The notes under the pieces are model-generated. The model was not told the origin of the DNA, did not search any database, and worked only from the letters and a program-made list of their open reading frames with translations. 64,000 bases of DNA from Actinomycetota bacterium (GTDB lineage Bacteria > Actinomycetota > Acidimicrobiia > Acidimicrobiales > Ilumatobacteraceae), in assembly GCA_016870865.1 (NCBI GenBank), contig VGAC01000005.1, positions 62,001 through 126,000 on the forward strand. Direction: 5' to 3'. Below are positions 57,398 to 61,853 of the stretch, in pieces (position 1 is the first letter of the stretch; each line of letters starts with the position of its first letter). The position numbers and the translations under genes are program-made.

Positions 57398-58210
57398 CTA
57401 CGACCCGGCGAAACCCCTCGCCTCGTTGAGCAGTGCCGCGAGTCGATCGATCGCGTCGACCCGTCCGGCGAGCAGGCCCGTTCGCCACGCCGGGTCGAGC
57501 GGCGCAAGTCGCACGAGGGTTTCCAAGCAAGCCCGTGGGCGGCCGAGGGCGATTCGCATTGCGACGGTCAGTGCGCCGTGCGGATCGTCGTCGATCGTGG
57601 TCATCAGCGTTTCGACGTCATGTTTCGAGAGTCGGCGGGCGAAATGCCGCGCCGCGATTCGGCGCGTCAGGTACGGCGTGAAGTACCCGGCGTATCGATC
57701 CTGCAGGTCGTCGCGTTTCCAGTCGTCCCCGCTGATGCGTGACCGACACTTCGTAGTTCCACATACACAGTCGAACTCGTCGTAGTTGCTGCCGTCGGAC
57801 ATTGCGTAGTCGAAGGTGAGTGCCTCGCCGACGGCGATGTCACGCATCGCAACCACTTGTGCCGCCCCGCACATGCCGCAGTTCGGCTCGCAGGAGTGGT
57901 TCACGGCATCCCCGGGTTCGCGCACGACGGGTCCCAACAGGAAGGTGTCGTCGTCGATCTGTATGGACCGTGATCGACGTTCGGGGTCCTGGCGGTCGAA
58001 GGTGGCCCTGTCCATCGGCGTCCCCCCGAAGGCCGCAACAATGGTTCCCGCGGGGATCGGGGCAATGGCGTACGACCCGAATCCCGCCCCTTTGGCCGGC
58101 CGCACCTGGGCAAGCGGTGTGAGGAAGTTGACGGGCACCGGGCGCAAGATAACGGGTCGAGGCACCCGCCAGAAAAGTTCCGTTGCCGTCCGGGCCGCCG
58201 CGGCTAACAT
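57398..58210 (-). CDS. SET-domain protein, probable protein lysine methyltransferase
   Basis: A 270-residue protein. The SET core shows a GFGSYAIAPIPAGTIV start (about residues 43-58), NHSCEPNCG (about 104-112) and GEALTFDYA (about 128-136). A post-SET-like CVCGTTKCRS with three cysteines (about 148-157) follows. These are the S-adenosylmethionine and lysine-channel motifs of eukaryote-type SET enzymes. The last 90 residues are a separate helical part. The ATG at 58210 overlaps the -10 of the metX riboswitch promoter, so GTG at 58165 or 58138 may be the true start. Target protein unknown. Confidence 0.8.
   Translation of the reverse strand: MLAAAARTATELFWRVPRPVILRPVPVNFLTPLAQVRPAKGAGFGSYAIAPIPAGTIVAAFGGTPMDRATFDRQDPERRSRSIQIDDDTFLLGPVVREPGDAVNHSCEPNCGMCGAAQVVAMRDIAVGEALTFDYAMSDGSNYDEFDCVCGTTKCRSRISGDDWKRDDLQDRYAGYFTPYLTRRIAARHFARRLSKHDVETLMTTIDDDPHGALTVAMRIALGRPRACLETLVRLAPLDPAWRTGLLAGRVDAIDRLAALLNEARGFAGS
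58183..58210 (+). promoter_or_regulatory. promoter of the metX riboswitch transcript
   Basis: TTGCCG (58183-58188) and TAACAT (58205-58210) are 16 bases apart, which places the transcript start near 58217, at the edge of the aptamer. The elements lie within the 5' region of the divergent SET gene. Confidence 0.5.
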
Positions 58211-58214
58211 GAGA

Positions 58215-58391
58215 GTGCTTTTGCATCACGAGTGACCGGGAAACCGGTCCGGCAACCGGGGTCGGTCCACGGTGCCAACCCAACCCGCAACGGTTGGGGA
58301 TGTGGCGGGAAACCGCAACGGGCCCTGTCCCTCGTTCTGCAGAGCACAGCGCGGAAACCTCAGCGCTCGAGCAGAAAGGAAAGGGACAGTG
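58215..58391 (+). promoter_or_regulatory. SAM-class riboswitch (SAM-IV/SAM-I-IV-like) controlling metX
   Basis: The leader has a GAGTGACCGG start, a perfect hairpin GACCGG-GAAA-CCGGTC (58234-58249), the conserved CGGCAACC (58250-58257) and GGTGCCAA (58271-58278). Hairpins CCCAACC/GGTTGGG (58279-58298) and GCGG-GAAA-CCGC (58305-58316) follow. The lack of a kink-turn in the first hairpin fits SAM-IV more than SAM-I. Downstream, CTGTCCCT (58325-58332) is the exact complement of AGGGACAG (58382-58389), which overlaps the ribosome-binding region and the first base of the start codon. This implies control of translation initiation. Confidence 0.8.
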
Positions 58392-59561
58392 GCGGGACAC
58401 GGACGTGACTACCCGGCCTCGGGCGCATGGCGCGCCGGCGACGCCGCGGGCGGGCGCAGGTTCTTCTCGCTGGCCGTCAATCGGGCGGTCGCCCTCGACG
58501 TTGGTGCGACGCTGACGGGTGTCACGGTCGCCTACGAGACGTGGGGCTCGTTGGCCGCCGATGCAAGCAACGCGATCCTGCTGTGTCATGCCTGGACGGG
58601 CGACTCACATGCCGCGGGTTCCGCCGCCGACGGACACCCGACACCGGGCTGGTGGGAGGGACTCATCGGCCCCGGTCTGGCCATCGACACGAACGAGTTC
58701 TTCGTCGTGTGCGCGAACGTGCTGGGTGGTTGCCAGGGCAGCACCGGACCCGCGTCCCTGCATCCCGACGATGGTCGACCGTACGGCTCGCGCTTTCCCG
58801 TCATCACGATCCGTGACATGGTGCGCGCCCAGGCCCGACTCGCCGACCATCTCGGGGTCCGTACGTGGCACAGCGTCATCGGTGGGTCGATGGGGGGCAT
58901 GCAGGTACTCGAGTGGGCGGTCATGTTCCCGGATCGTGTGCGGTCGATCATCCCCATTGCCACCTGCCTGCAGGCCAGCGCACAGCAGATCGCCTGGGGT
59001 GCGATCGGCCGTCGCGCCATTCGTCTCGACCCGCAGTGGCGGGGTGGCGACTACTACGGGGCTGCGCCCGGTGAGGGTCCCTGGGAGGGGCTCGCCATCG
59101 CCCGAATGGTCGCACAGGTGACGTTCCGCAGTGACAACGTGTTCAGTGAGAAGTTCGGACGTGAACTCGCCGACGGCAATGCCGACAAGAGTGGCATTGA
59201 CATGTGGGATCGCTTCGAAGTCGAGCGTTACCTCGACCATCACGGTGACAAGTTGGTGCGTCGGTTCGACACGAACAGCTATCTCGTCATCGGCAAGGCG
59301 ATGGACCTCCACGACATCGGTCGTGGACGCGGGGGGGTGGTTGCGGCGACCCGTCGCATCACCGTTCCGGTGCTTTCGCTCGGGATTTGGAGCGACATCC
59401 TGTATCCCAATTATCAGCAGCGCGAGATCGTGCGTCTCGTGGGAGAAAACGGCGGTCGTGCCGAGTACCTGGAGATCGACTCACCTCATGGCCACGACTC
59501 GTTTCTCATCGAACTCGACCAGGTTGGCCGAGCCGTGAGGTCCCATCTCACTAGGGTGTGA
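58389..59561 (+). CDS. metX: homoserine O-acetyltransferase
   Basis: A 390-residue alpha/beta-hydrolase-fold enzyme of methionine synthesis that activates homoserine. Motifs are AWTGDSHAAG (about residues 75-84), NVLGGCQGSTGP (about 112-123) with the family Gly-Cys-x-Gly-Ser-Thr-Gly pattern, and the nucleophile Ser167 in GGSMGGMQ. The later aspartate is in WSDILYP and the histidine in SPHGHDSF. Acetyl versus succinyl specificity is inferred from family. The GTG at 58389 is backed by AAAGGAAAGG. It is controlled by the upstream SAM riboswitch, giving feedback on methionine supply. Confidence 0.93.
   Translation: MAGHGRDYPASGAWRAGDAAGGRRFFSLAVNRAVALDVGATLTGVTVAYETWGSLAADASNAILLCHAWTGDSHAAGSAADGHPTPGWWEGLIGPGLAIDTNEFFVVCANVLGGCQGSTGPASLHPDDGRPYGSRFPVITIRDMVRAQARLADHLGVRTWHSVIGGSMGGMQVLEWAVMFPDRVRSIIPIATCLQASAQQIAWGAIGRRAIRLDPQWRGGDYYGAAPGEGPWEGLAIARMVAQVTFRSDNVFSEKFGRELADGNADKSGIDMWDRFEVERYLDHHGDKLVRRFDTNSYLVIGKAMDLHDIGRGRGGVVAATRRITVPVLSLGIWSDILYPNYQQREIVRLVGENGGRAEYLEIDSPHGHDSFLIELDQVGRAVRSHLTRV
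59552..59557 (+). promoter_or_regulatory. -10 element (TAGGGT) within the end of metX
   Basis: TAGGGT ends six bases before the ATG at 59564. It would give the downstream genes a leaderless transcript independent of the riboswitch. Confidence 0.5.
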
Positions 59562-59851: not shown

Positions 59852-60073
59852 GTGGCTACTTTCAATCCCGAGGAAATGATCGTCCGGTTTCGTGAGCGTG
59901 CTGCCTCCGTGAAGCGGCGTCCGTTGCCCCCGGTGGCCGGAGAAGAGCGTCAGTTGTTCTTGCAGCAGGCGCAGGTCGACTTCCAGGACTTCGCAATCAT
60001 CGGTGACGCGACTGCGACGGTCGAAGACGGTGTGCTCGTCCTGCGCGTCGACATGCGCGGCGACGGCGCGTGA
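59852..60073 (+). CDS. small soluble protein, 73 aa, unknown
   Basis: A 73-residue protein without a recognised family. It has a charged helical first half (FNPEEMIVRFRERAASVKRR) and a second half with beta character (DFAIIGDATATVEDGVLVLRVD). It ends in a GTGA overlap with the first EamA transporter gene, so it is translated with the transporter. A role tied to the transporter is possible but unproven. Confidence 0.55.
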   Translation: MATFNPEEMIVRFRERAASVKRRPLPPVAGEERQLFLQQAQVDFQDFAIIGDATATVEDGVLVLRVDMRGDGA

Positions 60074-60981
60074 CCGAAGCGCACGGTCATTCCCACGACT
60101 GGGCGCTGGCCGCCTGCTTTGTTGGTGTCATCGCTTGGAGTTGTGGCCCGCTGATGGTCCGGGGCATCACGGCCCCGGTTGCGGCATTCACTTTCGTGCG
60201 GCTGGTCGTCTCGGTCCCCGTCATGGGCGGGTCCGCCGCCATCGCGGGGCACCGTCTGACATTGTCGGTCTTTCGCGGCAGTTTGGTGCCCGGGATCTTT
60301 TTCTTCCTGTCGATGGCGACCGGTTTCACTTCGTTCCAGCACACGTCGATCGCGAACGCGACGCTCATCTCGTCGATGCAGCCCGTACTCATGCTTCTGG
60401 TTGCGCCGCGACTCTTTGGTGAGAAGCCCACTGCACTGCGGGTTCTGCTTTCGGCCGTGGCCCTGGGCGGAGTCTCGATGGTTGTTCTCGGCGCGGCATC
60501 GGACGGTGAGGCGTCGTTGGACGGTGACTTGTTCGCTGTCGCGAACCTGGTCACCTGGAGTGCCTACTTCGTCTTTGCCAAGCAAGCCCGCGACAAGGGT
60601 GTTCACCCCTCGGCCTTCCTTGCGGGAACATTCACGACGGCGGCGATTCTGGGTTTGCCGTGGGTGCTGATCGCATGGCCCGACTTCGGCGCGATCGGAG
60701 AAAAGGACCTGTTGCTGATCGCAGGGCAGGTTTTTGTTTCGGGCTTGTTCGGTCACACGCTCATGACCTGGTGCGCCCGCTTTCTCGACATCACGCTGGT
60801 GTCCTTGATCAATCTCTTGAGTCCCGCCATCTCGATGGCGGGGGCGTGGCTGATCTACGACCAGTCGATGCGGGCGGTGCAAGTCGTCGGGGCAACCGTC
60901 ATGCTGGGGTCGATTGCATTCGTGGTTGCAACGCGTTCTACGACGGTGGTTCGCGCTGACGAGGGACTGCTGGCCGATTGA
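60070..60981 (+). CDS. EamA/DMT-superfamily transporter (copy 1)
   Basis: A 303-residue membrane protein with about ten helices built from two EamA repeats. It opens with a histidine-containing TEAHGHSHDW stretch. The first repeat has GPLMVRGITAPVAAFTFVR, and the second has KQARDKGVHPSAFLAGTF. Family members export amino acids, metabolites or other small solutes. The stop overlaps a TTG start of a second EamA gene (TTGA). Substrate unknown. Confidence 0.87.
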   Translation: MTEAHGHSHDWALAACFVGVIAWSCGPLMVRGITAPVAAFTFVRLVVSVPVMGGSAAIAGHRLTLSVFRGSLVPGIFFFLSMATGFTSFQHTSIANATLISSMQPVLMLLVAPRLFGEKPTALRVLLSAVALGGVSMVVLGAASDGEASLDGDLFAVANLVTWSAYFVFAKQARDKGVHPSAFLAGTFTTAAILGLPWVLIAWPDFGAIGEKDLLLIAGQVFVSGLFGHTLMTWCARFLDITLVSLINLLSPAISMAGAWLIYDQSMRAVQVVGATVMLGSIAFVVATRSTTVVRADEGLLAD

Positions 60982-61853
60982 AAGAGGCAGTCGACAAGCC
61001 GTCACATCCGCTCGCGTTGTGGGCCGTGTTCGCCGGGGTCTTGTGCTGGGGCTGGGGCGCCGTCATCGTCCGCGGCATTTCCGCGCCGTTCATGGCGTTT
61101 ACGCCCGTTCGCATGTTGATCGGGCTTCCCATCATGGCGACCATTGCCTATGCGTCGGGCGGTCCCCTGACGCGCGCGGTGTGGCGCGTGTCCCTGGTGC
61201 CGTCGCTCTTCTACACGGCCTCCATGTTGTGCGCGTTCGCCTCGTTCCAGAAGACATCGATTGCGACGGCGACCCTGATCGTGTCGCTGAACCCCATTGC
61301 ACTGCTCGTCATCGCGCCGTTTGTCCTCAAGGAACGGGTGACGAAACAAAAGGTCCTGTGGTGTCTGGTCGCCGTGGGCGGTGTGTCGCTGGTGGTCGTG
61401 GGCAAAATGAGCGGGGGCGCAAACACCCTCGAAGGAGACCTCTACGCAGTTGGGAACCTCATTTTTTGGACCGCCTACGCAGTTGGCACGAAGCGTGTTC
61501 GCGACACGGGCGTCCACCCCTTCGCTTTCCTCACCGTTGCCAGCGCCGTCTCGGTCGTGTTGCTGTTTCCACTCGCATTCGCCACGGGTGCCGACTTCCA
61601 TGAGATCGGCGGCAACGATTGGTGGCTGATGCTGTTGCAACTTGTGGTGGCCGGTGTGATGGGTATGGGCTCCATCGCGTGGGCAAATCGCTACATGGAT
61701 GCGACCCTCGTGGCGCTCTTGGGCCTCGGGAGTCCCGTGCTCTCGAGCATCTTTGCCTGGTGGATTTTCGAGCAGTCGATGACCGCGGTGCAGATCCTCG
61801 GGGCCGGCGTGATGCTCGGCGCCGTCGGTGTTGTGGTGACCCGCAAGATCTGA
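60978..61853 (+). CDS. EamA/DMT-superfamily transporter (copy 2)
   Basis: A 291-residue, about ten-helix paralogue of the preceding gene. It shares segments such as VIVRGISAPFMAFTPVRMLIGLPIM and KRVRDTGVHPFAFLT with copy 1. The start is TTG at 60978, overlapping the previous stop; it has no histidine stretch. Tandem full-length copies may function as a heterodimer or export different solutes. No terminator is evident right after it. Confidence 0.87.
   Translation: MKEAVDKPSHPLALWAVFAGVLCWGWGAVIVRGISAPFMAFTPVRMLIGLPIMATIAYASGGPLTRAVWRVSLVPSLFYTASMLCAFASFQKTSIATATLIVSLNPIALLVIAPFVLKERVTKQKVLWCLVAVGGVSLVVVGKMSGGANTLEGDLYAVGNLIFWTAYAVGTKRVRDTGVHPFAFLTVASAVSVVLLFPLAFATGADFHEIGGNDWWLMLLQLVVAGVMGMGSIAWANRYMDATLVALLGLGSPVLSSIFAWWIFEQSMTAVQILGAGVMLGAVGVVVTRKI

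Follow-up and report, generated by a model that had tools for sequence, protein, structure and literature searches.

How could a riboswitch release a start codon that a hairpin in its own leader buries? The question is raised by the metX leader of a member of the Ilumatobacteraceae (Acidimicrobiales; GCA_016870865.1, contig VGAC01000005.1, positions 62,001–126,000 of the forward strand); all coordinates below are those of this 64,000-nt stretch, the window, and the leader and metX lie on its + strand. A sequence-only reading had seen blocks of a SAM aptamer upstream of metX, and the covariance-model search that it called for gave a significant match (E = 3e-7) that places the aptamer more precisely in the SAM-I/IV class: Rfam model RF01725 aligns at 58218–58332 from end to end (model positions 1–99 of 99), scores 53.3 bits against a cut-off of 41.1 and is the reported winner of clan CL00012. 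This was the sole copy that the search found in the 1.95 Mb genome. The aligned helices follow in the order P1, P2, P3, inner hairpin and P5; the 5′ strand of P1 (GCAUC, 58223–58227) pairs with its 3′ strand (GAUGU, 58299–58303), and hairpin P5 (GGCGGGAAACCGC, 58304–58316) lies 3′ of P1. The gene that follows (58389–59561, GTG start, 390 aa) was assigned as metX, encoding homoserine O-acetyltransferase, by NF001209 (PRK00175.1, equivalog; 483 bits, cut-off 331), and the alignment of the closest homologue begins at residue 1 of the frame opened by GTG 58389. The methionine/SAM gene 3′ of the aptamer is metX here and after most RF01725 matches in the family. Membership of the SAM-I/IV class is virtually certain, and SAM binding is predicted. 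A divergent gene (57398–58210, − strand) carries a SET domain (PF00856, E = 2e-9), and its ATG lies 7 bases from the first base of the aptamer, so that the 5′ end of this gene must also contain part of the metX promoter. Two overlapping ORFs 3′ of metX (60070–60981 and 60978–61853, both +) appear by eye to encode related transporters of the EamA/DMT type.

The aptamer is followed by a hairpin, which the sequence-only reading had drawn as three nested arms between 58325 and 58389. All of the quoted sequences are in place, and the outer arm (CTGTCCCT, 58325–58332, with AGGGACAG, 58382–58389) and the second arm (TTCTGC, 58335–58340, with GCAGAA, 58371–58376) held up. The innermost arm (AGCGC, 58348–58352, with GCGCT, 58363–58367) was dropped, being weak, absent from the MFE structure and not kept in relatives; the loop at this position aligns poorly even with the closest of them. 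Folded from 58322 to beyond 58389, the hairpin reached −35.2 kcal/mol, compared to −25.4 ± 3.2 for dinucleotide shuffles (z = −3.08; 1 of 200 as good), and it also forms within the MFE structure of the whole leader. Its 5′ arm, the switch strand Y (CCCUGUCCCUCGUUCUGC, 58323–58340), contains the anti-Shine-Dalgarno sequence (anti-SD) and the complement of an aptamer strand described below; its 3′ arm, strand Z (GCAGAAAGGAAAGGGACAG, 58371–58389), spans the Shine-Dalgarno (SD) region (AAAGGAAAGG, 58375–58384, 5–14 bases 5′ of the GTG) and the first base of the start codon, as the reading had claimed. The Y:Z duplex amounts to −22.3 kcal/mol. Opening the AGAAAG hexamer that overlaps the SD cost 6.1 kcal/mol when Y was available, 4.8 when another tail stretch was blocked as a control and 0.0 when Y itself was blocked; blocking Y also lowered the cost of opening the start from 7.3 to 3.1 kcal/mol. 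No terminator-like site was found within 58100–58700, in agreement with the earlier statement on this point. By computation, the leader combines the lack of an intrinsic terminator with an SD and start that are accessible in only one of its two states, as expected of a translational riboswitch, and the element is very likely a translational OFF switch on metX.

We then compared the leader with its relatives. Of 222 genomes from the window's family, 171 carry an RF01725 match, as do 69 of the 79 in the clean subset with a completeness of 90% or more; sampling of the order gave matches in 108 of 298 genomes. Named records carrying the same metX come from Ilumatobacteraceae and other Acidimicrobiia. 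The comparisons across genera used 142 metX leaders from 20 genera of the one family, with metX located by tblastn and starts chosen with a Shine-Dalgarno sequence. Within the window's genus (L001–L004), the aptamer is near-identical and Y matches it in conservation, whereas the loop and Z have diverged too far to be aligned. The Y:Z duplex reached −22.3 kcal/mol in L001, −18.1 in L003, −21.8 in L004 and only −12.8 in L002. The proposed hairpin would have been disfavoured by relatives in which the pairing is lost with no compensating change; in L003 and L004, a quite different 3′ arm still pairs with a near-unchanged 5′ arm and masks both the SD and the start, and L002 has only a weaker version. 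Together with the missing terminator and the SD-opening energies, this retained tail:SD pairing bears out, computationally, the earlier suggestion of translational control. Across genera the specificity of Y:Z is modest (−16.0 kcal/mol with a leader's own Z, −14.8 with swapped Z; 17 of 1000 permutations), partly because SD regions resemble one another. Blocking Y made the SD cheaper to open in 16 of the 20 genera, in 12 of them beyond the effect of blocking another tail stretch, and scarcely opened it in g6, g24, g18 and g50.

On its own, the hairpin would be merely a constant block, and the earlier reading lacked the element that could lift it. This element is an alternative pairing of Y with strand X (GCAUCACGAGUGACCGGG, 58223–58240), its partner in the predicted ON state, with which it forms 14 of 18 possible pairs without a gap (duplex z = −2.7; 1 of 200 shuffles as good). 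X consists of the P1 5′ strand, J1/2 and the P2 5′ strand, and X:Y and the folded aptamer are therefore mutually exclusive; X:Y and Y:Z exclude each other as well, since they share Y. The computed leader holds an aptamer, a Y:Z hairpin that masks the SD and the start codon, and an X:Y pairing incompatible with both, and sequence and co-variation agree on the arrangement typical of strand exchange, namely two exclusive pairings that share one strand, one of which breaks the aptamer. Locating Y by its best fit to X is circular, and every statistic was hence judged against a rerun of the procedure with sequences that had been swapped or shuffled.

Tails fitted their own aptamers better than those of other genera: the own fit was 11.27, compared to 10.46 ± 0.14 when whole genera were permuted (0 of 5000; 142 leaders, 43 distinct X), and a leader's own X:Y fit exceeded the swapped fit in 16 of the 20 genera. 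After correction for composition by tail shuffles, the mean z was 1.74 for own and 0.87 for swapped pairs (Wilcoxon p = 2.4e-4, 20 genera); swapped fits lie above zero because X itself is conserved and tails fit one another's aptamers too. The pairing recurs in the family with differing bases, for example TCATCCAGAGCGGC/GCTTCCCTGGATGG and TCATCAGGAGAGGT/AACTTCCCTGATGA in g22, GCATTTTGAGCGGT/ATCGCTCAAACTGC in g6, GCATTACGAGCGGC/GCCGCTCTTGATGT in g21 and GCATGACGAGTGGC/GACGCTCGTCGTGC in g24. No better-than-swapped X:Y was found in g5 and g9, which have very short leaders, or in g2 and g23, so the design is not universal among the 20 genera. In the g5 and g9 loci (including L008, L054, L055, L052, L089 and L090), metX starts 20–40 bases past the aptamer and X:Y complementarity is missing; these short leaders must use another expression platform. 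We rejected X:Y as an order-wide feature, as loci beyond the family (e.g. L012, L065–L074) show little or none of it. Loci from other families of the order (L056, L057, L059–L061, L063 and L064) have an aptamer 5′ of a gene that by eye is O-acetylhomoserine sulfhydrylase-like, and separate aptamer copies 5′ of metX.

The family also contains additional SAM-I/IV matches at L084 (in the window's genus), L005, L031, L032, L034, L037, L050, L088, L107 and L029, which lie 5′ of short, varied ORFs, sometimes two or three per genome. These ORFs had no Pfam, NCBIfam or PHROGs match, and a viral origin was dropped after viral contigs, searched for exact patterns and for the proteins, gave nothing. Such second-class loci were left out when the X:Y rule was found, and in most of those tested the tail complements the aptamer 5′ strand. 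At L084, 12 of 12 positions pair (0 of 500 shuffles), and duplex z values were −3.5 for L031, −3.8 for L034 and −4.6 for L107; the tail:aptamer complementarity was unremarkable at L029, L088, L009 and L048.

The order in which the pairings could form was assessed by folding growing transcripts with either P1 or the X:Y core enforced, using nearest-neighbour energies that leave out SAM, Mg2+, the pseudoknot and folding kinetics. In the window, X:Y was ahead by about 2–7 kcal/mol from the emergence of Y until the SD or just before the start codon; P1 was ahead by 3 kcal/mol at the start codon and by 7–13 beyond it. This shift from −7.9 to +10.2, or 18.1 kcal/mol, compares with 4.1 ± 3.4 for shuffled tails, none of which (0 of 120) shifted as much. 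It was also unusually large in L004 and L018, and less exceptional in L028, L087 and L023. In g21, g13, g6, g24 and g19, which have a strong X:Y, the ligand-free calculation favours X:Y even past the SD; in genera in which P1 never overtakes X:Y, the switch would require either an earlier action of SAM or an incomplete SD block. Ligand-free as it is, the calculated folding order is consistent with the ligand choosing the pairing. A tentative pseudoknot, PK-2, may contribute. It is plain and co-varying in many sister genera (g10, g13, g22, g24 and others), with pairs such as GGAAGC/GCTTCC, GGATCGCC/GGCGATCC and GGTTCGCC/GGCGAACC; in the window, the P3-loop side (GGUCC, 58264–58268), which has a clear tail pairing in most sister genera, forms only a weak, partly G-U pairing with the tail side (GGGCC, 58320–58324; invariant in L001–L004). 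The tail side lies directly 5′ of Y, and folding of the aptamer would thus bring Y beside PK-2.

The reading that we consider probable is a co-transcriptional strand-exchange OFF switch that shuts down metX translation when SAM is plentiful, with the SD region and the aptamer 5′ strand competing for one partner, Y. When SAM is scarce, Y would invade P1 as soon as it is transcribed and pair with X; consumed in this way, it would leave the SD free and metX translated. Bound SAM would hold P1 and P2, and probably PK-2, shut, and Y, remaining free, would capture the emerging SD and the G of the GTG and block ribosome entry.

We weighed three other explanations. The same aptamer and hairpin could operate with X:Y idle, the freedom of the tail being set by PK-2 formation or by the stability of P1; the PK-2 strand immediately before Y and the absence of X:Y from some genera would suit this, but it gives no reason why tail and aptamer 5′ strand co-vary across genera or why X:Y occurs before unrelated genes, and we consider it unlikely. 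Slightly less likely still is transcriptional control, in which the untranslated, SAM-bound RNA would be ended downstream by Rho, or the hairpin itself would terminate. Blocked translation often leaves transcripts open to Rho, and the translational M-box of M. tuberculosis is reported to act together with Rho-dependent termination (PMC12810186). However, the 58100–58700 interval holds no intrinsic terminator, and Rho would add to an SD block rather than substitute for it.

The hairpin might also be a constant damper of metX translation attached to a decayed or SAM-unresponsive riboswitch, in keeping with the very stable Y:Z, which the finished transcript favours by 7–13 kcal/mol even without SAM. 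This is highly improbable, as the aptamer is full-length, high-scoring and almost unchanged in L001–L004, and X:Y and Y:Z are both kept.

In riboswitches that work by strand exchange, the usual switching strand is the 3′ side of P1. In the window, the shared switching strand appears instead to be the 5′ side of P1/J1/2/P2, and the tail picks X or the SD region. Otherwise the first helix supplies a switching sequence, the two secondary structures exclude each other and the output is translational, as in the strand-exchange riboswitches that a review classes as mechanistic group 3 and calls the least understood group (PMC10907184). The aptamer itself shows no difference from SAM-I/IV (RF01725, CL00012), a class reported as a variant without the P2 internal loop (PMC2864571), and the expression platform lies outside the model. 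The core and P5 are shared with SAM-IV, as is the PK-2 between P3 loop and 3′ tail that is tentative in the window; SAM-I/IV differs from SAM-IV by lacking PK-1 and having a P4 helix (PMC6890682). There is a functional likeness to the met operon of Xanthomonas campestris, where a translational SAM-I riboswitch, once it has bound SAM, buries the SD and the start codon in a hairpin (PMC7270179), as predicted for metX in the window. There, however, the aptamer is SAM-I, and in the absence of SAM the anti-SD stem stays in place and initiator tRNA opens it (PMC7270179), whereas in the window the anti-SD is predicted to be engaged by a strand of the aptamer.

The aptamer family (RF01725) and the mechanism group (PMC10907184) are already known. 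The literature searched, outside which lay the original SAM-IV and SAM-I/IV structure papers, held no description of an X:Y/Y:Z platform or of any coupling of SAM-I/IV to expression. On balance, we favour the view that in the Ilumatobacteraceae the aptamer 5′ strand serves as a decoy for the anti-SD, in a three-strand switch re-evolved genus by genus before metX and unrelated short genes, which would be a previously undescribed SAM-I/IV platform. With competing strands that can be named base by base and natural co-variation over 20 genera, it offers a compact model on which co-transcriptional strand exchange can be tested, and methionine synthesis is probably controlled in this way in a common freshwater actinobacterial family.
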